Source of the DNA: Seison nebaliae
Taxonomy: Eukaryota; Rotifera; Pararotatoria; Seisonacea; Seisonidae
Length of the DNA stretch: 64,000 nucleotides
NCBI GenBank assembly: GCA_023231475.1
Contig: JALJEE010001258.1
Coordinates: 1-64,000 of the forward strand
Direction of reading: 5' to 3'
The number at the start of each line of letters is the position of its first letter. Positions within the stretch are counted from its first letter, which is position 1. This document shows positions 6,560 to 64,000 of this stretch, one piece after another. Below the pieces are notes generated by a model. That model was given only the letters and a program-made list of their open reading frames with translations, had not been told where the DNA came from and ran no database searches. Position numbers and translations under genes: made by a program.

Positions 6560-9139
6560 ATGCTGATCAGAGAATATCGAATACCGATACCCATGTCGGT
6601 GGACGAGTATCGTATTGCACAACTCTACATGATACAGAAGAAGACACGTACAGAAACGACAGGTGAGGGAAATGGTCTGCAAATCGTGGAGAATCATGCG
6701 TACGAAGACGAGAATGGGAGTGGACAATATACACTCAAAATTTATCATGTGGAGAAGATGTTGCCCAATTGGTTGAAGCGTCTTCTGCCCAAGAACGCAC
6801 TCGAGATCTATGAGGAAGCTTGGAACTCTTATCCTTATACGAGAACGACATATAAAGTTCCATTGTCCAATCGATTCTCGATCGATATTGAAACAAAATA
6901 TTTCGACAATGATCTCGGCGATAAATTGAACGTTTTCAATTTATCTCAAGACGAATTGAGTCGTCGACAATGTCGTCTCATTGACATGGTGAATGACGAA
7001 CAAGCGCCCAACTCGGAAGAAGAAGATTGTCGACTTTTTGTCTCCGCCAAATCGAAACGAGGTCCATTGAAAGAGAATTGGCTCGAAGAACGACGATTGG
7101 CCTTGACGGAAGAACGCACCACCGAACTACCAATTATGTGCGCTTACAAATTATGTCGAGTGGACTTCCGATATTGGGGCATTCAATCCACTGTCGAACA
7201 ATTCATTGATGATATCGCTCTTTATCGAACGATGTTACGCGCTCACCGTCAAGCATGGTGTTGGCAAGACGAATTCTACAATTTTCAAATTGAAGACATT
7301 CGTCAATTGGAGGACGAAACTCAACGACTCGTTAACGAACGAATGAAAACTATTAAACCAACAACAAAAACAACAGCAACAACAACAACCACAATTTCGA
7401 GTTCTTTAACCAAATCAACAACAACAACATCATCATCAACATCATCATCAACAACAATATCAACAACATCGAATTTGAAGAATGATAAATTTTTAAATAA
7501 TACGACAAATATCGAACCATCATCATCGTCGTCGTTGATGGTTTTGGAAGATGGAGATGAATCCACCACAAATGATCGAGTGATAAGACCGAAGAATTTA
7601 TCGATCAATTCAACGAGAACGATAGAGAATGAGGATGAGAATGACGATTTTTTCGATTGTCAATCGCAATTCGGTTCGACATATTTCTCGAGTCAAAAAC
7701 CGTTTCCTGTTCGACGTATCCATCTTTTGATAACGACACGACCGACGGACAATAAAGAGTCGTTGGACGAATTGAAGCGATTGAGAGAGTGTTTGGGAGA
7801 GAGACGTAGCGTAACTTATTTCAACAAGTCAGATGAGAATATTCGAAAAAGTGAAGGAAATGGTCGTCTGATAATGACGACAAATGACGAGCGAGATGAG
7901 ACGAATGTCAATAATCGATTATCAGTGGATGATATTGACGTAGAAAAGAAGACGATGCGACGAAATGAGAGAAATCGTCAAAGTTTCCCACCCGCTGCCA
8001 CTCAACTTCATGAGAATGATGAATTGATCGCTGAATTGATGATATTCGATCTCTTCAACAAATATTACGAACATTGGATTGAGAAATATGGATTGCATTA
8101 TCTCAAGAATACGTCGTCGTCATCGATATCGGTTGAACAATTATTAATTTTAACATCGAATTCTTATTATCTTCAAATTCTCAATGAATTCATCGAACAA
8201 TTGAATGAGCGTTTAAAACGATTATTTAATCATCATTATTCTACTACATCCATCTCTCTCGTTACGAACGACACAATTTCTGCCGTTCTTCTTTTCGATG
8301 CTCTTATGCTCAATAATCATCGATCAACAATGCAAGATGAATTAATCAATTTCATTTTCAATTATGATACAAAACATTTATTAAAATCGATTAATCTTCA
8401 TAAAACTGACAATATAAATAATAACTTAAATAATTTAAATTCAAATAATTATAATGATAATTTGCGAGAGTTCAATCATCTTCCATCCGATCAATCATCA
8501 TCAAATAATCGGAAATCAATTTCGTCAATTGATGGAAAAGGTTTTCGTCCACTCTCCGCCATCTTGCCATCCGGTGAATCGATTCAATCGATCAATACTC
8601 TCTTTTATGCGTCCTGTTCCAATGTGTCATTACTCGATCAGAATTATTCGAATTCCATAAAAAATCCTCCGAACTTCCTTCGATCCTCCTCCACGTCAAC
8701 CATCACTTCCGCCACGCCCACCATCTCCCGACTCCACAACGATCGTGACGACTCCGACGACAGTTTCGATATTTCGTCACCACCAACGATGTTTTCGCTA
8801 GTGGAGCCAGTACCGTCACCGCCACCGTCGCCACCAACCGTCATTGCCAAAGAGGAGAATAGCGCCATGAATTTACCGTCGCCAATACCGTCGTTGACTT
8901 TGTCGGCCGTTTCGGCGTCCGATAAACAGGAATCTCGATCGATCGGTCGCAAAATGAAGAGAGTGACCGATACATTTCGTCAGCAATTCAATCATCATAA
9001 TCAACCATCGTCCAACAATCATCAGACATCGATGAATGTTGTCGATCGAAATAAATTAATAAAAAGTCGAACGAAAATGAATTTCTCATGTATCTCTCAT
9101 AACAATTCATCAGAAAACGAATTTTTCGATGTTACTTCC

Positions 9140-37937: not shown

Positions 37938-40712
<2,775 letters not shown>

Positions 40713-48216: not shown

Positions 48217-51200
48217 ATGTCATACACTTCGAACGACAATGGCTTCCTCCACATCGGAGACATCATCACTCTCTATGGTAATGCTGACCATTCTGGTTAC
48301 ATTTATACGATGGGGTTTCTTTCTCTTTCGTTTGTTTTCTCCTCAAATTTATTTTCATAGTATTATTGATGATCGAATGTTCATCAGGAAGAATGATGAT
48401 GTGGGAAATGAAGAGGATTTGTCCTCCGATCGTTTCAGAGGTTTCCATCCAAATTTCCATTTAATTCAAATTTCGTCATGAAATGAATCATTTACAGATT
48501 GTTTATTCCGCATTTGTAATTGTTACAAGTATAATGCACAAAAGCAATATTGGCATGCATTGCAACAACGGAAGGAAGCATGTCAATATCGACCTCATTT
48601 AGAAATGCCGATGGACGACTGGTCGCATCGTACGCACAAATACACCGATCGATTCATTCGGAAATTGAAGGTTTGTTACACCATTTTATGATTGTGGAGA
48701 ATTGTCCAATTAACATATCATTCTCGTATTTGAGAGCGAGTACGAAAAATAAATTATTAAAAAAAACGAGTTTGTCTCGTTGAAATTGAAAATAGAAGAA
48801 AAAAAATAATGAAAAAGATTTTTGAAATTTGAGGGAAATAATTTCAAATCCAAATGGATTTCGATGAAAATTTTCGCTTTTTTCCCATTTTTTCACTTCG
48901 ATTTTACGACGACTATAAATTGAGCGTTGTATTAGGCTTTCTTTGCATTTCATTAATCCATTCATTTTATTCGACATTCATTAGTTCCGTTATTCCATTT
49001 CATTCATCATGTCCCTCAATTTCAATGTGATCGAATCTACTCCGGACTATATGAACAATGAATCGTCTTCTTCTACTTTTACCGCCACACCCAACCAATT
49101 GTCGATGTCTCCTATTTTTGACGTGAACGATGAATTTCGTTGTCTTACTCGTAGCTCGAACAAATGTGGTACTTCTATTCAATCTAGTCTCACGACTAAT
49201 GGTAAAATTCATTTGAATTCCAATTCGAATATTCTCAAAAGTGGTTATGTCGAACAACAGAATAACAATCATTCCGTTTTCAATTTCGATATGTCAATTA
49301 CCAACTCCAAGTCATCGATTGAAAGTAAGATTTCTGATCTCTATCTGACATCATTGACGGATAAGTCGGATTTAAGTAACGACTCTCACACCACGAAAAA
49401 CCATCACATCATTGGAGCGTATGATCAATCGCCCGATAGCGAACCAGAATTTAAATTAGCCGATTTAAATGACGACACTTCATTAATTGAAGTATGCAGT
49501 CAGAATAAATTCCCAGTTCGTTTTGAACTTCTCACGACCTTCTAATTCTTCTCCGTCTTCTAGGGATGTTTAGAGAGCGACCAACCTTTCCGACTCGCAC
49601 ACCGACAGACACAAATGTCCTGCGAAAGTTTTACCGTTTGTTCTCCCCCGGCTAACCAGGTAACCATCGAATCCACCAACCAAATGAACCGGGTTGGTGA
49701 TGAAGTGAGTTTGAAGGAATTTGAAACGAATCATTCCTTCAACTCCGTCACCGAGTTCTATGGTTCGCCGCAGACTTGTGTTCTACCCTCATCATTTCCA
49801 TCGTCGTCCGGTGATAGTGAATTCATTAAAGATAAGAACTTATCCAATTCTAAAGAGTGTCAGGCCATTCTCTCATTGAAAAGGGACATGGATCAACTCT
49901 CCGATTCATCCGACAACGAATCGATTTCAGGGAAAACTGGCGCCGTTTACGTACTCGAAGTTTGTGGTACTCTCCCCGTCCTTTGCGATTTATTACGAGA
50001 TCGTCGAATCCATTTTACTGCGGATAGATGTCATGATAATGTGAGACGAGTCATCGCTACTCCTCAATTCAAGACGATATCGACACAGACATCAGATTGA
50101 TATGATTCTCGATCATTATTGAACGAAATTGATGAATGAAATTAAATAATAATAATAATAATAATTAAATTTAAATAATTCGATTTTTAATGAATTTTTC
50201 CATTTTTATTAAATTTTTCGATGGATTCGATTCGAACATTTTCTTTTTCTATTTAATTTCTTTTTTACCTAAGAAATATTAAATGATATTAGTTCGTATA
50301 ATTGTAGATGAGAAATTTAATAATTTTGTGCTCGAAGAAATTTCAATGAAATTTCCAATGTTTCCCGGATGAATATTAATAAGAGGATTATCTCCTCTTT
50401 CCACGAGTGCTTCCTCATCAACACCGATTACATGAAACACCATCTCTTAAGAACACCATCGGAAGATGGTAGTAAGAAGGAATTCGAATAAAATTAATCA
50501 ATAAAAATACATTAGCATCAGCCCTCGAACACTATTACATGTGACATAATTTCCCGTCGAATTATTTATGTTTTATGTCACTTATTTTTAGAAGGAGGGA
50601 GAGCACGCTTCCTGGGAGAATTCGTAGTCGGAAAAGTATGTTATAGAATTATAATTCTTTCGTGTCATTAATCGGAGTGTAAGAAGAAATATGTTCGAAC
50701 TGTGAACTTGTTTTCAATTACAACAAATAAAAATCAATATTCGACTTTCCTCCCCTCATTCCCACCACTTCTCAACGACTCTGCACAATTTTCCCGCTCA
50801 ACATTTCTCTGTAGTTATCCTCAGCTGAATTGATGACAACTTCACACCAATCAACTCTACTTCAAACTTCATTTCCTTCCTTCATATAAATACCTGAACA
50901 TCTCCCACTTTCTCCTCCACATTCCCCCTTAATTTTCCATTCGTTCACAACTCGTTACCGTCTGTGATGGTTCGAATGATCTGTTGGGGGAAATCATTTC
51001 GAATTTTCCAGAATTTTTTTTTGAAAAATTCATAAATAATGTTGGAGAAAATGAAATTTTTGATTGATGAATATCAAAATTATTGACTGATTGTGGTAGA
51101 TCGATGGTGATGATAATGATATTAATTAGGATTATAAATATTTCATGATTTATCTCACATCAGTGTCGTGAGAATGAAGATGTTGAAGAGAAGTTGTTTT

Positions 51201-54200
51201 CTCCAATCGCTGTTAGTTTTATTAAGATTAAGAATGGATTGTGAGAACGATCGTTTTAAAATCGATTTTCTTCCTTTCTCTCAATCGAATATTCATCGAA
51301 TTGAGAAAGTTTTTTTTTCTTTCCGAAGTATCAATTGGATGTACGAGAAGTGTAAGCAAGAGTAAAATTGAAGGTTATAAGCCGGAATTTATCGAATTTT
51401 CTATGGTGGCTCATTGGGAGAAGTTTTATAATATTCCTGGGAATATTTCTTATAATAGACATTGTCCCCCCAATATGTGTTGGGGGAATGGAGGGCGGGA
51501 GGTAGAGCAAAGAGTTATTTTGTTAATGATAATGATGTTGTTTAATTTACTTTTTTTAATATTCAACTTATCTCGTCGCAATAGGAACGATGCATTTCTT
51601 CTTCTTCTTTTTCTTCTTCTTCTTGTTCCCTTTTCTTCAACAAATGAATTTTTCTTCCATTTACACTTTATTCCATACCCGACATGGAGACCGATGTAGA
51701 ACGTTACTCAACTCGCTACATTGGACGCAAATATTTCATTTGTCACCTTATTCTCCAATATCACTCTCACAACAATTCTGAAAAAGAAAGATCGACATCC
51801 ATTGTACGATTATCGTATTTGTTCGGCTTCTGTTGGATGATGAGCAAATATCCTATTTTATTTGTTTCCTTCGAAATATCATTATCGGATCGACGGAAAT
51901 GAGATATAATCATATCATTCCTGGGAACATCCTTCTAACATCCTCTCCCCTAACTAAACTTTTCTGTTAATTGGAACGATTTCATATCGATCCATTTCGT
52001 CACCAACATCATTCGACGGCCATTTCCATGATTATTCAGGAATCATAAAAAATATTTCAATTTTTTTATTTTCGTTCAGTTTCCTAAAATTATGATTGAT
52101 AATTTATGAATTTTCAAATTCCATTTAAATTTAGTTTAACCGGTTGTTTTGATGAGAATTTATGAATTTAAAATTTATGATAAAAAAATGGCTGGAAGAA
52201 GAAATTTCGAGGGATTAACACGGAGATTACTATGATGACATCCATTCTTCTATTCTGGAGATATCTCAGAATTTTCATGTACTTTTCAAAGTTGATCGTC
52301 GTGTGAAACGAAGCCCGAAATGGACAGTTTTGGCTAATAAGGAAATATTAGGGTTGTTGTTGTTGTTGTCGTTGTTGGATTGTTGGTTAGTTTGAAATTT
52401 GGTTGCTCGACAGAAATTGAATAGAGGAGGGGACGGAGAGAGGAAAGAATAATGTTAAGATTAATGTTGTAAGGACCATGAGATTTGTCATCATCCCAAT
52501 TGTCATCTCATTCATATTAATAAATGGAACGACAAGTTTCGTTATAAGATTATGTTTCAGTGTCACCATATTAACTCATGACATTAACTCGTTATTGGAT
52601 GTTGTATCTCTCTTGTCATAATCAATGGAAGAGAGGAATGGTATGGACGAATTGTAATTTAGATCAGTCCTTCCTTCTCCCTCAATTATAGATCACTTCA
52701 GGCTATATGCACTGAATCTTTAACAAAGCAAAAGGGAAACGAGAAAGATGATGATGATGATGATGATGATGATGATACGATGACTACCACTACTAGTCAT
52801 GTTAGTTGGCATTCGAATAGTCAATCATTTGCCTTTTCTCAAATGTCGTTTCCTTCCTTTCCTCGCCTTCCTCCCCAATAGTCGATACTTTATTATAAAA
52901 TATTAGACTGTCGTAGAATCGAGTGAAAAGTCGTAGAATAAGATGTAAAGTCGATATTGTCTCTTCGTCCTTCGTCTCTTAATTGCTTCTGTCTCCCGCA
53001 TAGTTTTCCTTTGGTGCGATTTTTACCTTCTTATTTTTCTTCCTTTAATTCTCATCATCCATTCATCACTGCATTATGTCAACACGTTTGCTTCATCTGC
53101 TACAACAATATTTTCCTGCATGATTAATTACTTATAGCTTATTACACAGATGTATCCGTGTAGACATGTGTGAGATTGTGTGTGGTGGTGTGCGCGCGCG
53201 TGTGTGTGCATGAGTGCGAATTGGTGTGTCGAGGGGAATATGTTGGTACGAGTGTATCCGTTTATGTTCACTTTATTTCTTCTTTATTATTCCCATATTA
53301 TTCCAAAAGATATTGATAGGAAATATTAACAATTCATTTTTATTCCATCTATTCATCACCATCTTGTGCCGGGCAACTAATGTTGTGCACATTATATTAG
53401 ATTCTCAGATTCTCTCAAATATTCAATTCATCTTCTTCTCTCCAATTAATATCCGAATGAATCCTCTTCCCATTCTCTTCTTTCTGCTCCCACTCCAACA
53501 CTCTCCCCCAACATATTCAATGAATTTATTAGAATTTCAATTTTATCCTTCTTTCCAAAAAGAAAAAACGATGTCAAACCGTATTCGAATCAGATGAACA
53601 TGTATCACACTCCAATTCTGTTCTCGTTCTCCACCTTCCAATTATTCCTATTAACATGCCGATGTATCAAATCATTATTACGATGATTTCCCATTCAATT
53701 TGAGTCATGTAATCGGAATTCGCTCCCAACGAAAACTTTCACACTTCTCTTCCATTCCTCCTCCCATTCATTCTCCTTTCCATGTCCATCGATGGAGAAA
53801 AAGAAACTTCATTTCTACAATTCACCTTATGAAGATTCCGTTTGTTCATTTGCTCCCAAATAATCTCGACAATCAAATTGAAATGCTTCTCCAATTATTT
53901 TATTATCGGGGAATGAGAGGCAAATGTCAAAGAGACCGAACTCGTCAATCTGGTGTGGGAAACCAGGAGGAAATATGTTTTCGCATTTTCTTTAAATTCT
54001 CGTTCGTTCTTTCCACTAATCCCTCTCAAATGACCCAAATACTCTTCCCCTCATGTTCCTACTACGAACGATAATTGCACTTCCTTCCCTCGTTCGTTAA
54101 TCTGATAGTCAGGCCGGTTGACGGCTGACGGGGAGGGGAGACGTCGAGCTGAATAACAAAGAGTACACAGAATATGCGAGGACATCGTGATAAGGAGGAA

Positions 54201-55034
54201 ATTCCAATGGAAACGATTGATAAGTGAGAGAAGAATGTTTACAATATTAGTTGACGTCAGAATTTTTGTATTTTTCTTCTTATTGTTGCCCGCCCGAACG
54301 GCGAGAAAGAGAGAACAGAAGAAGGTGATAAATACAATGTTTATATTGTTGTTAATAATCATCATTATGATGATCGATGTTATATCAATGATTTTCAAAT
54401 TTATTGTTGACTAATAAGAAGTGACATCTATTGTTCATATCAATTCTTCTTCTTTCTTTCCATCATATTCCATCATTCATTTCATTGTTTTCAGTCGTTG
54501 GATGATTGTTGAGCGAATGTGCACAATCAGTGCACAAAAATTCCTGCTACCATATATTATGGAATATCTTCTGCCGATAATTCTCATAATGATAATCATG
54601 ATGGTGATGATGATGAGAGTGTTATTGGGGGAGAGCAAGAAAGGAAGAGAAAGAGCAAAAAATGAACCATCTTATTTGAAGAGAATTTCGAATCTTTTCT
54701 TAATCGTCATTTGATCTACGTTCTCATCATTAAGTCATTTCTCCTTTCTTCCCGTCAACACTCGATAGTTTGTGCATATTGTGAAGTGTCTTCCCACCCT
54801 AATATTCTTTCGCTTCATTCTAACTGCCAATTTTCATTCATCAATTCCATTGCCATAAAGACGATGACTATATTGATAATTATCATTAAATTTTATATGT
54901 GTTGACAAAAAATAAATTCTTTACCGTCACATATCATCTCCAAACAGGAATTGATGTTTGACTACGTATACTATCGATTATATATCGATACGTTTCCACT
55001 CGAACTGATCGGACTGATATCGAACAGTTCACAA

Positions 55035-55065
<31 letters not shown>

Positions 55066-58000
55066 TTAATAAGTTTAACAAATTATTCTTGTTCACCAGC
55101 ACTTTTCTTGGAAAGAATTTAAGAAGAAGAAATTCCATAAGTGTTATGTTATAGGGAGAACAGGATTTCTACTAAATAAGCAAGGAGAATCGTTCATTTT
55201 CTTGCCCAGTCGTTGCCAGTTTTAGCTGTGGAGAGGAGAAGTAATTGATGTCAAATAAAGTTTATTGAATTCAAGTTAGTTGTAATGAGACAGAATTTCC
55301 ACTGTTATTTCTCTCCAGCCAATAATCTAATTTGGCATTGATACTGAAAATGTTGTATAAGTCGCTGGTAATTAGGAGGGAGCACGAATTGGTCGTCGTG
55401 TGAGTGAGGAGAAATGTCAGAGATGGAAGTGAAGGAATAATGTTATTAATGGAAAGATTAAGTTTGATAACGATCATCAAACTATCATCTTATTATACGG
55501 CATATTAGTGATAACAATAATATTATTATTAGTCTGAATGGAATGTCGGTGGTGGTTGTTCGTTATTTTTGTTATGATGTCTGACTCAATGGGGAATGGT
55601 TTGAAGGAAATCGGGAAAATAATTATTTGGAATATTTTTAAATGATAATCATCGATTAATTTCATGTTAGTCGTCGCGAGTCAATTGATAGAGTTGTGCG
55701 AGTCGTTCATATATTTTCTTATTATTCATCCTAACATTCTCTCCCCCCTTATGTTACTTGCTATTTTTGGTTGATTTGCAATTGCCTGCTCTCGTACAAT
55801 TGCGCTAATTCGGCATTATAATTGCATAAACATATTCATCATAAATATCTTATAATAAAGCAGATTTCCTAATAAATACACTAACAAGAAGAAGAAGAAT
55901 AACAACAACAACAACTGTTGGAGTATAGGACCAATCGGAGTTTTGTGTACATGAAGAAGAGGAGGAAGAGGAAAAAGATGAGGAATATTTTAATACGTAT
56001 AAAGAATAAGGGGACAATACTGGGGGGTCGCAGTAACCGACAAACAAGAACGACAAAGAGGGGAAAAGAAGACAAGAAGGAAAAATCCAAAAGATTCATG
56101 AGAGAACAGTTGAGTTGTCGGAGTGGGCAGGATGGTGGGTATTGTAAGGGGGAAGGATATCACCAAATTAGTTAAATGAGAAATTAGACTCAACTCCATT
56201 AATCTCATTAATTAGTTGAGAAAGTGCAACAGTGAAAATTATAGATCAATAAGTACGAACATTATAGTCATCTTCATAATCGATAACATCCGAACAGGAA
56301 TGATTAATGAAAGATTCTCGTCCGAAATGACGAAAAGTAGCTGATAAATGGAAGAAAAAGAAGAATTACTGAGAACATACTTAATCTTTCCATTTCGGCA
56401 TTGGCCTGGAAGTAATTGTGTAATTTTATCTAATATCATCGATCTAGACAGAAGGAAACGATATGGAAGCTAATTATCATCCCTGCCATTATAGAGTGCG
56501 AACGGTCTTCTATTTTCAGTAGTCCGAAAGATAAGTTGTGGAAGATAAAGGTTAGAGAAAGGAGATTGTGCAACTTCCACTACGCTCGACGGTTGGCCGC
56601 TCATAATCTTAACTCGATAAAGATCGATCCTTCAACCTCCTCCAATCCTACGTCGTCCACTGATGTGATTTGTTCGCTTCTTCTTTCCTTTTTGTACTTT
56701 AACAACTACGAGATTAACTTTCAATGTTCCATGAATGTGCAATTATGTGTGTGCGTGCGTGTGTGTATGTGTATATGTATATTCGGATGTTCATTTGAAT
56801 GATTTCATTGGAATCATTGAGACATTGAGGTGAGTGTATACGCGATTTTATCATTCTACACACAAGATAAACATTCGGGTGGATGTTGGTGGCGATGTAT
56901 GTGGAACATTATCTGATGAAGAATATGTAAATATTATCAGGAAATTATTCGCTGTAATCATGCTCCCCCTCCAACAAAAAAAATAATAACGAACAATCAC
57001 CTCATTAACGTTCGGAATAAAATTCCTATAAAAATCAATCATCTTTCTCCTTTTCTTTCTAATGCAACTTACAACAATGTAGCAATAATTTCGGTATATC
57101 ATCCATCCCCCCTTCCTCACCAACCTCCCCAACAAACACATAAATTATATTCGTGCTGATATTCAACACCCATTTAGGTTAAGTTAGAAATTCTCCATCA
57201 TCATCATCATCATTATCATCGCCCAGAGGGATAGACCTTCAATATAATTCATACTAGAATTATATCTATCTATCTCCGATTGGTGTTAATATAATCATGA
57301 TTATGATGATGATGATGATGATGATAATAATAATGATGATAATGATGATCTTCATTGACAATGATAACGTTTAGAGACGCAAGACCATCACATGAAAATT
57401 CGACAGTGACTTATTTACTTTTATTTACTTATCATCTCATAAATTATTTTAAACTTTCCATCATTCGTCAACCTTCTGATTCGTTTGCCCATGAGCACTA
57501 CACTGATGTTTATCGCTTGCTCTTACACTCATCGAATTTCTGATGAAGGAGAATTGGCGGTTATCCACCAGTGATGGTGGTCATGATAGTGCAAAAATTA
57601 AAGTTCAATAAATCATTCAAAAAGAAGATTTTGATTCTTATTAGGCGATATGTCAAATGTTATGGTATGGTGACAGTGTATTATACGAATTGTTTACAAT
57701 TGTCATGTTTGACTAATTCCTTCAATTTCTCATCGTCTAATCCTTCATTTCCATTTCTATGTTATGCTCGATAAGAAAGTTGTAAGAAATTTTTAATTTG
57801 TTTGTCAACTTTCCTCATCTCGAACATCGGTCGGGAGTGATGAGTTCCTATTTATTTCTCTTATCTGCTCCTACGACTTGGTCGATGGGGTGAAGGGGGC
57901 AGTCGGTGGAGGGGGCATTGGGAGTGGAACACTAGGGAATAATTAACAGTGAAAATGATTTGCTTTCTCTTCTGTCAAGAAGGAATGATTGAGAGGAATT

Positions 58001-61000
58001 GTTAGGGAAGTGGCGAGAAGGGAATGTGTTAACATCCAATTTGTGAGATGAGCACAAACGAACAATAATAAAAATGGAAAAAATCGGATTGAGTTCGTTC
58101 GTTTCAATTTGGTTTGTCATCGTTTATGTTTCATTAAATACACTCTTGTTCTCCTCAGATATTTTTTCATTTTTTTCTTTTTTTCTCTTTTTTTTTTCCT
58201 TTTCGTTCCATCTAACGTCGTCATTACTCGTCGTTATTCCCAATTACTTTTCTCATATTTTCCTTCCATCACAATAAGACGATTCTTTATCATACATTTT
58301 ATTATTCACACTTCTCTCCTCACCAGTACGAGACACGAGCGGTACCGTTACTTTTTCGATTACCCAATCGGCATATCTCATTATCATACGCTCCCCCCAC
58401 TACTTAAGTTAGTTAGTTTCTGGTAATTTATTTTTAAATCTTTTTTTATGATTCTTATCTATCATTCTTCATCTCTCCGACTCATGTCATTACAGCGAAC
58501 ATCTTCTTATCAACTGATGGCGAGTTGTTACCTTGAGTGGGAGATATCTCACGAAATTGAGTCTTTATTCTCTTTATTAATTCTCCATTAATTCCAACGA
58601 ATGTGTAATCGGGAGAAGATCCGAAAATCTTTCAATCTATTCCTATTAATCTGAAAAAAGTGAATGTGACAATGTGCGCATGAAATGGAAAAATTAGAAA
58701 TTCCTTCTACCATTTCCCCACCTTTTCTCCCCAGTCACATGCTCTTCCAAGCTACGCCATTTCTTCTTTTCTAACATCTTGTCTCCTGATTATGTCCATA
58801 CGTTATTGACAGATGTGTGTAGTCGTTGCCTCTTCTACTTGGTGATGGTGGAGCGAATGTCGTTGTCTCTTCTACTTCTGATGGAGAATGTCGTTGTCAG
58901 TTTTGTTTTTGTTTCGGGAGGGGAGATGGGAGAAGCAGAAGATAAAATACATTTACAAATTAATTATCATCGTCCTTTCATTTGGGTGTAGAGTTAATTA
59001 ATTAATTCAAACCGAATGAACATTCGCGACCATCTTATGGAAAAGATGACAGATATTCTCCTCAATCGCTTTATTACTCTGCCATAATCTGCCCAGTCTC
59101 TTCAAATATCAGTGTCTCTCCAATTAAATGAGACAATTGTATGTTCTTCTTCCAAACGTCACTATCGTCATCCATGTCAACATGTACGACTTCGCTCCAA
59201 CACTTCATTCATTAGAGGAATCGAATAATTCTATGCAAATATTCTGCTCGTCCTCTCCCCACACACATTCCACTCTGTGACATATGTAGATAACAGTGTT
59301 TAATTCTTCTCTTCATTTTTTCATATTCGCACTACTGAAGGAAAACATCAACTCTTATCTACTTCATTCCCTCCCTTATTCGCTCATTGTTTCTTTTTCT
59401 TTTTGGGATATTCCTCCACACCTCAAACATGTGCACATTCAGTGCACATTATTTTTCTCTTGTCATTGTTGTCGTTCGTCTTCCCATTCTCTTTCGGAAG
59501 ACGGAGGAATATAATTGAAACATCTAATAAGGCTTCACCACATCATTCAACTTCTCCTCCCAATAATACCTTCTCGAATGGTCGGAGAAAATTTACTTTC
59601 TGGTGCTCCTACACAATTTTTCATACCCATCTAATATTCTTATCAATGCAATATAATTCCAATTATTTTTCTCTAATTTCTCATATCATACGACGGTTAA
59701 GAAATGATATTCTTCTCATTTCCATTCCTAAAGCACCATCTTCCAATACCATCACCAATACCATCACCAATACCGTCACTAATACCATCACATTCAAATG
59801 TCCATCCGTTCTCTTAATGATGATGATCATCATCATGATGATTGAGAGAAGAAACCTCTTAATAAAATTTATGTGATTTTGATTTGATGATTTGAATGAA
59901 TTCCAGGAAAATTGTCATGAGTCAATTATTCGGATTATGATTCCTGTGCGAAAGAACCGAAAGCACATTTTCAATTTGTTTCATGAAAAGCGAATGTAAT
60001 TTAAGGAAAGAATTTCTCCCATACTCGTTCGTTGTCTAATCGACTTCACTCAATCCGATTCTTCATATTCTATTTCATTCCATTTTATTTTCTCTTTTTT
60101 GGTATTTGCCTTTTTTGTTGTAATTTCCGCCCGCACACCTCTTTCACTCGTGTCCTTGATTTGGGAGAGAAGACAGATAATTTTATCCCAACTCATTGGC
60201 AGTTTGTTTGAAAATAATCGATTTTATCTAATTGTTTTTTTTTAATTTTCTTCCTCCTCTTCACCCCTGCAAATCAACCAACCAAACCAATACAGATAGA
60301 TAGATAGTCAGCTAGAGAGTTAGGTAGATATTGTGATCAAGACAATTGTTTGATCCCAACACTTTGGTATACATGAAATATTCGCCATCATATCTATAAG
60401 ATCAACCGACTCATTCTCATCAGCTACACAAAAAAACCTTAATTGAATTCATTCGAAAATTGAACATTTGACGGTCGAAAGGTAAATGTCGGCTGTGTCG
60501 AAAACCAGCCAAGATACCATTGGGACTGGCGGATCACGGAGACGTGATATCAAACTAACCGATTTCTACTTATGTAAAGCGTTGGGAGAAGGTTCGTTCG
60601 GCAAAGTCATTCTGGCTTACCATCGCCAAACGTTAAGGTTTTATGCAATTAAAGTGCTCAGCAAGAAACGGATTGTCAAATCGCGACAAATCGATCACAC
60701 CCTAAATGAACGTCGTTTACTCAATTACGTAAATCATCCATTCGTCGTTAAAATCAATTTCACTTTCAAAGACAATTCCAATCTGTATATCGCTTTGGAA
60801 TATTTGTCGGGAGGAGATCTATTCCATTATTTGCGGAAGGAGGTCCGATTCAAAGAGCAGAAATCTCGATTTTATGCGGCGCAAGTATTTCTCGCTTTCG
60901 ACTACCTTCATACACGCCACATCGTCTATCGGGATTTGAAGCCCGAAAATATCATGATCGATTCGGACGGATATTTGAAAATTGTCGATTTCGGTTTCGC

Positions 61001-64000
61001 CAAAGAAGTGCAGGGCAGAACGTGGACGTTGTGTGGAACGCCCGATTATTTAGCGCCGGAAATCATCCAGAATAAACCGTATAATAAAGCGGTGGATTGG
61101 TGGGCGTTCGGCATTCTCGTTTGGGAGATGTGTCAGGGCGAACCACCGTTCAGCGGTTCGAATCATATGGAATTGTATGAGAATATCGTCAAATGTGAGC
61201 CTCATTATCCCTCTCGCTTCTCGAGCGAATTGAAGGACTTGCTGAAGAACATTGTCATTGTCGATACAACGAAACGTTACGGTTGTCTTCGACGCGGCAG
61301 TGAAGACATCCGAGCACATGCCTGGTTCAAAGACGTCCATTGGAAGACGATTTATAATCGGCAGGAAAAGGCTCCTTATGTGCCGCGAATAAAATACAAG
61401 GCCGAACCCGATCTCTATAAGGGCCAAGAGATCACGCTGAGAATATCTGCTACCAATTTGTACGAAGACGAATTCAAAGATTTTTAAACGAATCCATCAA
61501 TTCCTCCAAAATCATCCCAGTGATTATATAGAAAAGGAATTCAAATTCATTTCATAAGAAAACCGTAAAAAATAGTAATCACCAGAAGATGAAAAATGAT
61601 GAAGAAAGACAAAAACTGAAACTGTCATCACAAAAAAATAATTGAACTTTCTAATTGTTTTAATGTTCCTCCCAAAAATGTGTTACTCTATAATGATGTC
61701 ACTCTTATTTTGATTATCATTTCTTTCTACATGTAAAAATATCGATAGCTTTCATTTCGTTCTCGTAAAAACACTTCTTCTTTTTCAAATAGTTTCTTTT
61801 CCTTCACACACACACACACACCACCACCACCACTTAACCAAATCCTTTCCATGTGGTCCTTTGAACATAATTCAAATTTCTTCACCATTACCATCACCAT
61901 TACCATCACGATCAACATTATGATAATCATCCATTTGACATCAGGTCGAAAATATATTTAATGAAATCATTGTCTTTCCGCCAATATCCATTCACGTCGG
62001 TTCGAAGTGTGTCCAATTTGGACGATTCGATTTCTATGAGAAATTCTCCCCATCTTTTTCACCGTCACTGGAAAGAAAGAGAGAGAGAGAGTGTTGGTGG
62101 CGAGTCGACTGAAATTGCCGAATTCCCTTCAAACCGATTACCCACCATAACAAAAAAAAACTTATTCTTCATAACCATTTTTCCAAATTGCGTTAATGTG
62201 CTCACAATATTCTTTCATCATATTATTATTCTCATTCTCCAAACCATCACCATTACCACCAATAACTACCACCACTTCATCTATGAACATGTGGGGATTG
62301 GTTCCATCCTTCCTCTTCTCCTCCTGCCCCCCTTCCCCTACTTAAAACACCATTCTTTCAATATTTGTAATAATATATATTTCTACGCGTAAATCTAAGT
62401 GAAATTTGTATCGTCTCATTCGTCTCATTCGTTAAGTGATGACGGTAAATGGGACAGATGAATAGGAATGATATATTACAAAAATCGATTGACCAAACCT
62501 TTCAACTTTTTGCTCAAATTATCAAATGAAAACTCTTTTATTTTCTTTGCTTAACTTATATTATACTCATTTATTATTATCTTCTTCTCCACGGGACGAA
62601 AACCAGACGAGATGAAACGATTCATTTCACTCTCAAGTTCCAATGTTGTACTTATTCACAATAACTTTTCCTCCTCCTAACAACTCCATTCGAGAAATCG
62701 ATTTCAAACGTATCATCTCAATGAAACACCCTTCATAGAATGGGAAAGGAATGATAATTTCTCTTCTATCCTTTCCCAATAGCCAAACAGAAGTGAATGA
62801 AATCATATCATTATGATTATGTCTACAACTGTTGCTCTTCATTCTTTCTCACACTTAGATTATAGACGGGAGACTTGAATATATGCATCCTATATACCTA
62901 TATATTTACGTTGACATCTATATCTATTTTAACATTTTACGAATTCTGGTCAAAAAATAAACGATTCTGTACCAAAACGAACAACAATTACTTTTCTTCG
63001 CTTTCTCTCGAATTCAGATAGAGAAAGTCGAATTCTTTTATAATTTATTAATAAATTTTTTAAAGATTTAATTCATTCGTATTATCATTTCCACACAATT
63101 TCAACACAATATTAACACAATATTAACACAATATTTATTCGATAAGAAACCATTTAAAAATTAACTAGATATGATAAGAGAAACAGATATAATAATTTCC
63201 AAATACTTTGCTAAGATTCAAATATCTCAAAAATTACAATTCAATTTTAATTCATTTAAAAAAAAATGAATTAAATTTAGCGAAAATTCTCATAAACTTA
63301 AGTCGAGTTCTATGGGAACTGTTGGAGAAAATATTACCAAAGAAATAAAATAAATAAATTTAGAGTTAAATAAAATCAAATATTCGGTGAATATAATAAT
63401 ATGAATATTTTATGGAAATTTAATGGAAAAACTTTTATTTTGTAGCAAATCGGAGATATGGAGAAGAAGCAGAATAAAGAGGAAGATATCAATATGGCAG
63501 GAACGGCGTTACAATACGGATGTGCTATTCAAGTTTAGTTAGATTAGATTGATGGAATAAATTTCAAATTATTTTCCAGTTATATCACGTGAAGAGTCAT
63601 CGATTTTTGACGATTCACAAGCATCTCTCAGCGCAACAAGAGAAGAATGCGATGAGAGTGACACTCGACCGATGTGGAAATGATGGGTCATGGGTTCGGA
63701 TAGAGCCCTATTTCAAAATCCGTCGATTTGGAGATTATGTGTTGGAGGGAGATCGAGTTCTTTTGCGACCGATGAACAGTTCTCAATCATTACATGTGAG
63801 TAAGAGAGAATCATTGACCGATCCATATTGTCATGAAGTGAATTGTTTCCCCGAGACGTCTCGATTAACCGATTGGAAGTTGAATGTTTTTATGAATTTT
63901 AAGGACAACATGTCGGACGTGTTGAAAGGAGGTAGTGTCGTTCGTTTGTTTCATGCGGAACAGGAGAAGTTTCTCACCTGTGGCAAATATAAGAAAGATG
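48217..64000 (+). CDS. ITPR: Inositol 1,4,5-trisphosphate receptor, 5' part (runs off window)
   Basis: Exons 48217-48314, 48361-48440, 48498-48670, 63446-63532 and 63580 to the window end form one frame. The start MSYTSNDNGFLHIGDIITLY matches the family N-terminus, then IIDDRMF, RFRDCLFRICNCYKYNAQKQ, MEKKQNKEED and QYGCAIQ, followed by EKNAMRVTLDRCGNDGSW and VVRLFHAEQEKFLTC. This is the suppressor (beta-trefoil) domain and the start of the IP3-binding core; the binding arginines and the channel lie beyond the window. The product is the ER Ca2+ release channel opened by IP3. Intron 3 (48,671-63,445) is ~14.8 kb while the other introns are 46-57 bases. Exon 3 ends and exon 4 starts in phase 0. 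The intron hosts two other genes on the same strand. Confidence 0.93.
48914..48920 (+). promoter_or_regulatory. Candidate TATA box of the nested unknown gene
   Basis: TATAAAT lies 95 bases before the ATG at 49,009 inside the IP3 receptor intron. A start site about 30 bases downstream would give a 5' UTR near 60 bases. Confidence 0.4.
49009..50100 (+). CDS. Unrecognised Ser/Asn-rich protein nested in the IP3 receptor intron
   Basis: Two exons (49009-49515, 49564-50100) split by a 48-base GT-AG intron join in frame to 347 residues. No domain was recognised. The first two thirds are rich in Ser, Asn, Asp and Thr with no signal peptide or membrane segment, so a soluble, largely disordered protein is likely. 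The C-terminal third is more ordered: SLKRDMDQLSDSSDNES, then GAVYVLEVCGTLPVLCDLLR and DNVRRVIATPQFKTI. Codon use (TCG, CGA, GAT) resembles the real genes. It starts about 340 bases after IP3 receptor exon 3. An acceptor at 48,984 could in principle splice exon 3 onto it in frame, making a truncated receptor isoform, but an independent gene is the simpler reading. Confidence 0.6.
50101..60485 (+). other. IP3 receptor intron 3, gene-free part
   Basis: About 10 kb between the nested unknown gene and the PKA gene. No conserved exon, tRNA or transposon was recognised. It contains (GAT)n at about 52,749-52,777, a GT/GC alternating tract at about 53,178-53,208, (GA)n at about 55,036-55,062, CAT/GAT tracts near 57,190-57,350 and an (AATACCATCACC)-type repeat near 59,745-59,790. 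Two near-identical 17-base GTGCAC-N5-GTGCAC elements occur at 54,519 and 59,431. It may include 5' UTR exons or the promoter of the PKA gene. Confidence 0.5.
59746..59792. repeat. Minisatellite of AATACCATCACC unit
   Basis: About four copies of the 12-base unit, with ccgtcact variants, lie in the IP3 receptor intron upstream of the PKA gene. Confidence 0.75.
60486..61487 (+). CDS. cAMP-dependent protein kinase catalytic subunit (PKA/PRKX-like), intronless
   Basis: A single exon of 333 residues. AGC-kinase landmarks in order: GEGSFGKV (glycine loop, about 35-42), YAIKVLSKK (ATP lysine), YLSGGDLFHYLRK, YRDLKPEN, DFGFAK, the activation loop WTLCGTPDYLAPE with the PDK1-site Thr, and DWWAFGILVWEM. 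The C-terminal tail ends in EDEFKDF, the FxxF hydrophobic motif that closes PKA-family kinases. It phosphorylates Ser/Thr downstream of cAMP when freed from regulatory subunits. The protein lacks a second-position Gly, so no N-myristoylation is expected. Asp replaces the usual Glu in GTPEYLAPE. PKA-C and PRKX are not separated by what can be seen. The gene lies wholly inside IP3 receptor intron 3 on the same strand, preceded by aggtaaATG. The absence of introns is compatible with a retrocopy or with lineage-wide intron loss. Confidence 0.93.
   Translation: MSAVSKTSQDTIGTGGSRRRDIKLTDFYLCKALGEGSFGKVILAYHRQTLRFYAIKVLSKKRIVKSRQIDHTLNERRLLNYVNHPFVVKINFTFKDNSNLYIALEYLSGGDLFHYLRKEVRFKEQKSRFYAAQVFLAFDYLHTRHIVYRDLKPENIMIDSDGYLKIVDFGFAKEVQGRTWTLCGTPDYLAPEIIQNKPYNKAVDWWAFGILVWEMCQGEPPFSGSNHMELYENIVKCEPHYPSRFSSELKDLLKNIVIVDTTKRYGCLRRGSEDIRAHAWFKDVHWKTIYNRQEKAPYVPRIKYKAEPDLYKGQEITLRISATNLYEDEFKDF
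61488..63445 (+). other. IP3 receptor intron 3, 3' part
   Basis: About 2 kb after the PKA stop, containing its 3' UTR. A (CA)n tract lies at 61,806-61,822. A 143-residue frame at 61,961-62,392 has codon-like bias only in its first 50 codons and then degenerates; it is not called. Three tandem acacaatat steps occur near 63,098-63,134. The intron ends in ttttattttgtag. Confidence 0.5.

Follow-up and report, generated by a model that had tools for sequence, protein, structure and literature searches.

The receptor gene and its predicted long intron

The window, by which we mean the whole 64,000-base stretch of DNA analysed here, corresponds to bases 1-64,000 of contig C265 (168,724 bp) in an assembly of Seison nebaliae (Rotifera, order Seisonacea) that totals 36.0 Mb in 846 contigs. 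Its final part holds the 5′ portion of an IP3 receptor (calcium channel) gene, which we modelled by reading past the window end: seven exons on the + strand between contig positions 48,217 and 72,308, encoding 3,022 amino acids, with two further genes enclosed in the third intron (Table 1). All six introns are GT-AG, and they measure 46, 57, 14,775, 47, 49 and 49 bp. An earlier note on this DNA, made from the sequence without database searches, had described the coding sequence as stopping at 48,670 and restarting at 63,446 with matching phases, and this is confirmed at the DNA level, with a gap of 14,775 bp: the donor GTTTGT follows the KLK codons, the acceptor TTTTGTAG immediately precedes exon 4, and both sides are in phase 0. 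The same note had called this intron exceptional and had placed two co-oriented genes inside it; the first point holds when the intron is set beside the receptor's five other introns of only 46-57 bp, and we find both the intronless kinase frame and the two-exon gene, each on the + strand.

Table 1. Features of the receptor locus, in contig positions (identical to window positions up to 64,000)
Feature	Position	Strand	Description
IP3 receptor exon 1	48217..48314	+	98 bp, ATG start; with exons 2-3 matches IP3R N-termini
IP3 receptor exon 2	48361..48440	+	80 bp; joined model, N-terminal homology
IP3 receptor exon 3	48498..48670	+	173 bp; KLK end, phase 0
IP3 receptor intron 3	48671..63445	+	14,775 bp, GT-AG, no N
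Nested gene 1	49009..50103	+	Two-exon gene; matches the Seison nebaliae database entry SNEBB_008532 (347 aa)
Apparently non-coding DNA	50104..60485	.	10.4 kb between the guests; without genomic copies except short simple-repeat matches
Nested gene 2	60486..61487	+	Intronless PKA-group protein kinase, 333 aa
IP3 receptor exon 4	63446..63532	+	Begins QIGDMEKKQN; contains the start codon of the database protein (63,458)
IP3 receptor exon 5	63580..71613 (window holds 63580..64000)	+	Joined model
IP3 receptor exon 6	71663..71989	+	Beyond window, joined model
IP3 receptor exon 7	72039..72308	+	Beyond window, joined model

The predicted protein has the features expected of an IP3 receptor within one gene, namely the N-terminal domain, RYDR_ITPR domain matches (64,555-65,175 and 66,577-67,017) and the pore sequence GGGIGD, the last of these present in the joined model. 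Exon 5 alone, with 8,034 bp, makes up most of the receptor.

Evidence that the two halves belong together comes from homology across the long intron. The first 286 residues of the joined protein align collinearly with IP3R type 1, 2 and 3 chains (best E 2e-74), which bears out the earlier proposal that the residues flanking the gap are contiguous in the family. The joined N-terminus matches 38 solved-structure sequences at E<=0.001, among which IP3Rs rank first and ryanodine receptors next. Exons 1-3 by themselves find IP3R N-termini in all 18 sequences retrieved at E<=0.01, with a best E of 1.3e-18. When the protein of exons 1-3 is searched against the genome, the three matches at E<=10 are these three exons themselves, so the assembly holds a single copy of them. 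Genome searches with Ins145_P3_rec and RYDR_ITPR return two loci only, C265 and C830, the latter of which we read as a ryanodine receptor locus. As far as these searches could see, the assembly contains no other partner candidate for either half of the receptor. From protein homology and splice phase, we infer that exon 3 is joined to exon 4.

The database protein from this contig presents a different 5′ end. It has 2,901 amino acids, carries PF08454, PF01365, PF02815, PF08709 and PF00520, and begins MEKKQN at 63,458, just past the long intron; it equals the seven-exon model from residue 122 onward, and the first 121 residues are missing. It crosses three of the modelled introns and is therefore a spliced model, and since it starts only after the long intron, its gene builder did not make the 48,670-63,446 junction. 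Exons 1-3 were apparently missed in this model, perhaps because of the length of the intron. The start at the exon 4 ATG could instead be taken at face value, with the receptor being N-truncated and exons 1-3 forming a separate or dying piece. On the other hand, exons 1-3 have kept open frames, matching phases and their resemblance to IP3Rs, the QIGD before the ATG would be translated only if exon 4 is spliced to something upstream, and the DM at this point matches the DL of IP3R1. We consider a receptor that exists solely in truncated form to be quite unlikely; an N-truncated isoform may coexist with the full-length protein.

The enclosed genes

Nested gene 1 is 98% identical to the database protein SNEBB_008532. 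In the database splice, exon 1 spans 49,009-49,515 and is followed by a 48-bp intron and by exon 2 from 49,564, giving 347 amino acids; an alternative choice ends exon 1 at 49,491, with a 72-bp intron and 339 amino acids. A Pfam search of both halves gave no match at E<=1, and among 868 database candidates the gene's own record was the only match at that threshold. With in-frame coding scores close to zero (-4.5 and -3.0), the case for nested gene 1 as a coding gene is made by its long open frames and by the database model; the other frames score mostly strongly negative, one antisense frame of exon 2 reaching +18.3, above the in-frame scores.

The second guest can be assigned with more detail. 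Among solved structures it matches PKA-C alpha best (E 4e-115), and the catalytic motifs are intact, comprising the glycine loop, K72, YRDLKPEN, DFG, TWTLCGTP and APE. The protein ends in F-x-x-F, a terminal motif shared with kinases of the PKA/PRKX group. Judged by its closest solved structures and its intact motifs, it is an AGC kinase of that group. No named PRKX is found among the matches listed (120 of 6,310 proteins). The alignment starts at residue 22, compared with 38-39 in PKA-C, and the N-terminus is therefore shorter than that of PKA-C. Compared with nine animal PKA-C proteins, the nested kinase shows 52.9-55.8% identity, and a gene on contig C696, which has short introns, shows 76.2-80.0% to the same nine. 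In a tree of 20 rows that included no PRKX reference, the C696 gene groups with PKA-C (support 95), and the nested kinase falls on a long branch outside the group formed by PKA-C and the kinases of C234 and C465 (support 80). It thus lies outside animal PKA-C, where an orthologue would be expected to group, and we call it, on these sequence comparisons, a divergent PKA-group paralogue. Besides the conserved PKA-C gene (L017, on C696), several divergent PKA-group kinases occur in the genome; those of C234 (L010), C465 (L031) and C746 (L032) are 44-47% identical to the nested kinase. Another kinase-like stretch lies elsewhere in the window at 38600-39067 and contains three stops in six-frame reading (one TAG and two TAA), perhaps reflecting introns.

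An origin of the nested kinase as a retrocopy was considered from its intronless state, which proves uninformative: 38 of 139 kinase matches in the genome, the nested kinase included, are likewise stop-free over nearly the full profile (from position <=5 to >=258, in our own reading of the match table).

Signals for independent expression of the guests are putative, consisting of TATA-like and AATAAA-like motifs. TATA-like motifs on the + strand precede the start codon of nested gene 1 by 95 bp (48914..48919) and that of the kinase by 91 bp (60395..60400); both are leads only and were chosen after looking, and about 5.5% of intron positions have such a motif 70-110 bp upstream, a range that was itself set after looking. 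At the 3′ side, AATAAA occurs 384 bp past the stop of nested gene 1. For the kinase, the 1.4 kb past the stop contain no AATAAA and only AATATA variants, the AATATA being at 464 bp and the first AATAAA at 1,469 bp. Across both strands of the window, AATAAA occurs 222 times compared with 151.6 in dinucleotide shuffles, and none of 100 shuffles reaches the observed count.

The remaining intron sequence and its contiguity

Between the two guests lie 10.4 kb in which we searched for hidden genes. Of the 18 open frames of at least 80 amino acids, 10 were scanned with Pfam; nine had no match and one had a sub-cut-off match to DUF2740 (E 0.038). The best coding scores (19.8 and 16.0) are similar to those of the reversed sequence (19.9 and 17.9). 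An Rfam search of the intron returned nothing at gathering scores. The sequence gives 50 short genomic matches, of which 49 fall within query positions 7,178-7,264 and the other within 2,632-2,680, and both sites are ATG/GAT simple repeats; beyond these, the sequence is unique in the assembly. Counted from gene ends, no other non-coding run in the 238.7 kb examined is as long, the next gaps measuring 7.4, 6.9 and 6.1 kb. That sample covers little of the genome and is not a random one, and the ranking comes from a crude coding-score model that overlooked exons 1-3 and nested gene 1, so that its raw top gap of 15.2 kb is too long. In a compact genome, such a stretch free of detected genes could hold regulatory DNA of either neighbour. 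At the opposite end of the window, two tRNA-Glu genes stand side by side (222-293 and 501-572, anticodons CTC and TTC).

The arrangement could also be an assembly error, in which a foreign two-gene block has been placed into what is really a short intron between receptor exons 3 and 4. The assembly is a draft in 846 contigs, and PMC8351084 describes published assemblies (of 3,301 and 14,609 contigs) made from pooled animals of two strains, circumstances that speak for such an error. However, on either side of the block the receptor has the expected order, orientation and phase, splice sites mark both edges, and a random insertion would need to land exactly inside an intron. Neither an N nor a shared repeat is seen at the block edges; the window as a whole contains no N, and, short simple repeats aside, the intron has no repeat that would invite a misjoin. 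We thus regard a misassembly as unlikely.

Two complete genes between the receptor halves also raise the question of trans-splicing, with the halves made as separate transcripts and joined in trans. Spliced-leader trans-splicing is known in bdelloid rotifers, as described in PMC1925144 and PMC3795323. Against this, the known 23-base rotifer leader, taken from the sequence given in PMC3795323, was not found at up to 3 mismatches, a search that a diverged leader could escape, and ordinary cis-splicing is sufficient to account for the gene. We regard joining in trans as highly improbable. A broader version, in which a 5′ gene of three exons and a receptor body made as its own transcription unit are joined in trans, or in which poly(A) choice within the nested genes decides whether full-length or N-truncated receptor is produced, seems to us very unlikely.

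A possible link between kinase and receptor

PKA phosphorylates IP3 receptors in vertebrates, and the earlier note had found the physical nesting of a regulator within its target suggestive. Such a functional claim would come on top of the nesting itself, with the enclosed kinase regulating the enclosing receptor. The nested kinase does keep its catalytic motifs, and in an alignment with Xenopus IP3R1 the first of the two vertebrate sites RRDS and RRES, which we take to be the PKA sites of IP3R1, corresponds to TRYS in Seison, so that the serine and one arginine are kept. The second corresponds to EMKD, and RRxS is thus kept at neither site. A third Xenopus motif, RKPS, aligns to RRPS a few residues after GGGIGD. 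Motif counts in the Seison receptor are at the level of chance: [RK][RK]x[ST] occurs 5 times compared with 4.9 on average in shuffled sequences, of which 275 of 500 have at least 5, and R[RK]xS twice compared with a mean of 1.3 (184 of 500 reach 2). Moreover, the gene that groups with PKA-C is the one on C696, another contig. The regulator-target idea therefore finds no support here; we think it very doubtful that the kinase acts on its host, and coincidence is the better reading. PMC3786989 regards gene nesting as mostly neutral, and in the 109 human and 752 fly pairs it covers, expression of host and nested gene is not significantly correlated.

Interpretation

We read the arrangement as a single functional IP3 receptor gene that carries, in its third intron, two independent genes of the same orientation. 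This is the best explanation and a likely one, and the nesting itself is most probably incidental. At the DNA level both guests lie wholly within one host intron, the intron itself being predicted. Transcription of the receptor would run through both guest genes, the long intron would be removed by ordinary cis-splicing, each guest would have an intronic promoter of its own, and the poly(A) sites of the guests would mostly be passed over during receptor transcription. Read-through of the nested poly(A) sites, which the earlier note had drawn from co-orientation, follows only if the receptor is made as one transcript.

Several observations count against this explanation. At 14.8 kb, the intron exceeds the receptor's other introns in length roughly 250-fold, the database protein starts past it, and same-strand overlaps are described as selected against (PMC2330155). 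The distance from the kinase to its first AATAAA and the near-zero coding scores of nested gene 1 also belong on this side.

A rotifer gene that is otherwise compact can thus contain a long, gene-bearing intron, and database models of genes with such introns can lose their N-termini. If the 2,901-residue protein were taken as the Seison IP3 receptor, partial loss of the N-terminal domain would be wrongly inferred. If other seisonids or Acanthocephala share the arrangement, the locus would be well suited to studies of same-strand nesting and of read-through at poly(A) sites.

Comparison with known systems

EGOT within ITPR1 is a human case of a gene nested in an IP3 receptor gene. Our literature search found nothing on nested genes with an IP3 receptor, nor on EGOT nested in an ITPR1 intron, and for rotifers the listings returned for nested genes and introns held nothing on this arrangement. 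What we describe appears to be another case of a known kind, ordinary gene nesting.

Nested genes are common in animals, and PMC3786989 puts the share of intron-nested protein-coding genes at about 6% for Drosophila, 2.1% for C. elegans and 0.5% for human. As with these, each Seison guest is a complete gene that would lie, with a reading frame of its own, in a single predicted intron of its larger host, and a functional link between host and guest is not evident. What differs is that two guests occupy the host strand in one intron, in a gene whose remaining five introns measure 46-57 bp. PMC2330155 reports same-strand overlaps to be under-represented in five animal genomes, whereas both Seison guests are parallel to their host; in sharing the host strand, they resemble the parallel nested pairs that make up 75 of 749 human overlapping pairs in the same report. 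The nested kinase, for its part, is like the PKA-C/PRKX group in its match to the PKA-C alpha structure, its catalytic motifs and its F-x-x-F end, and unlike PKA-C in its lower identity, its shorter N-terminus and its tree position outside PKA-C and the C234 and C465 kinases.
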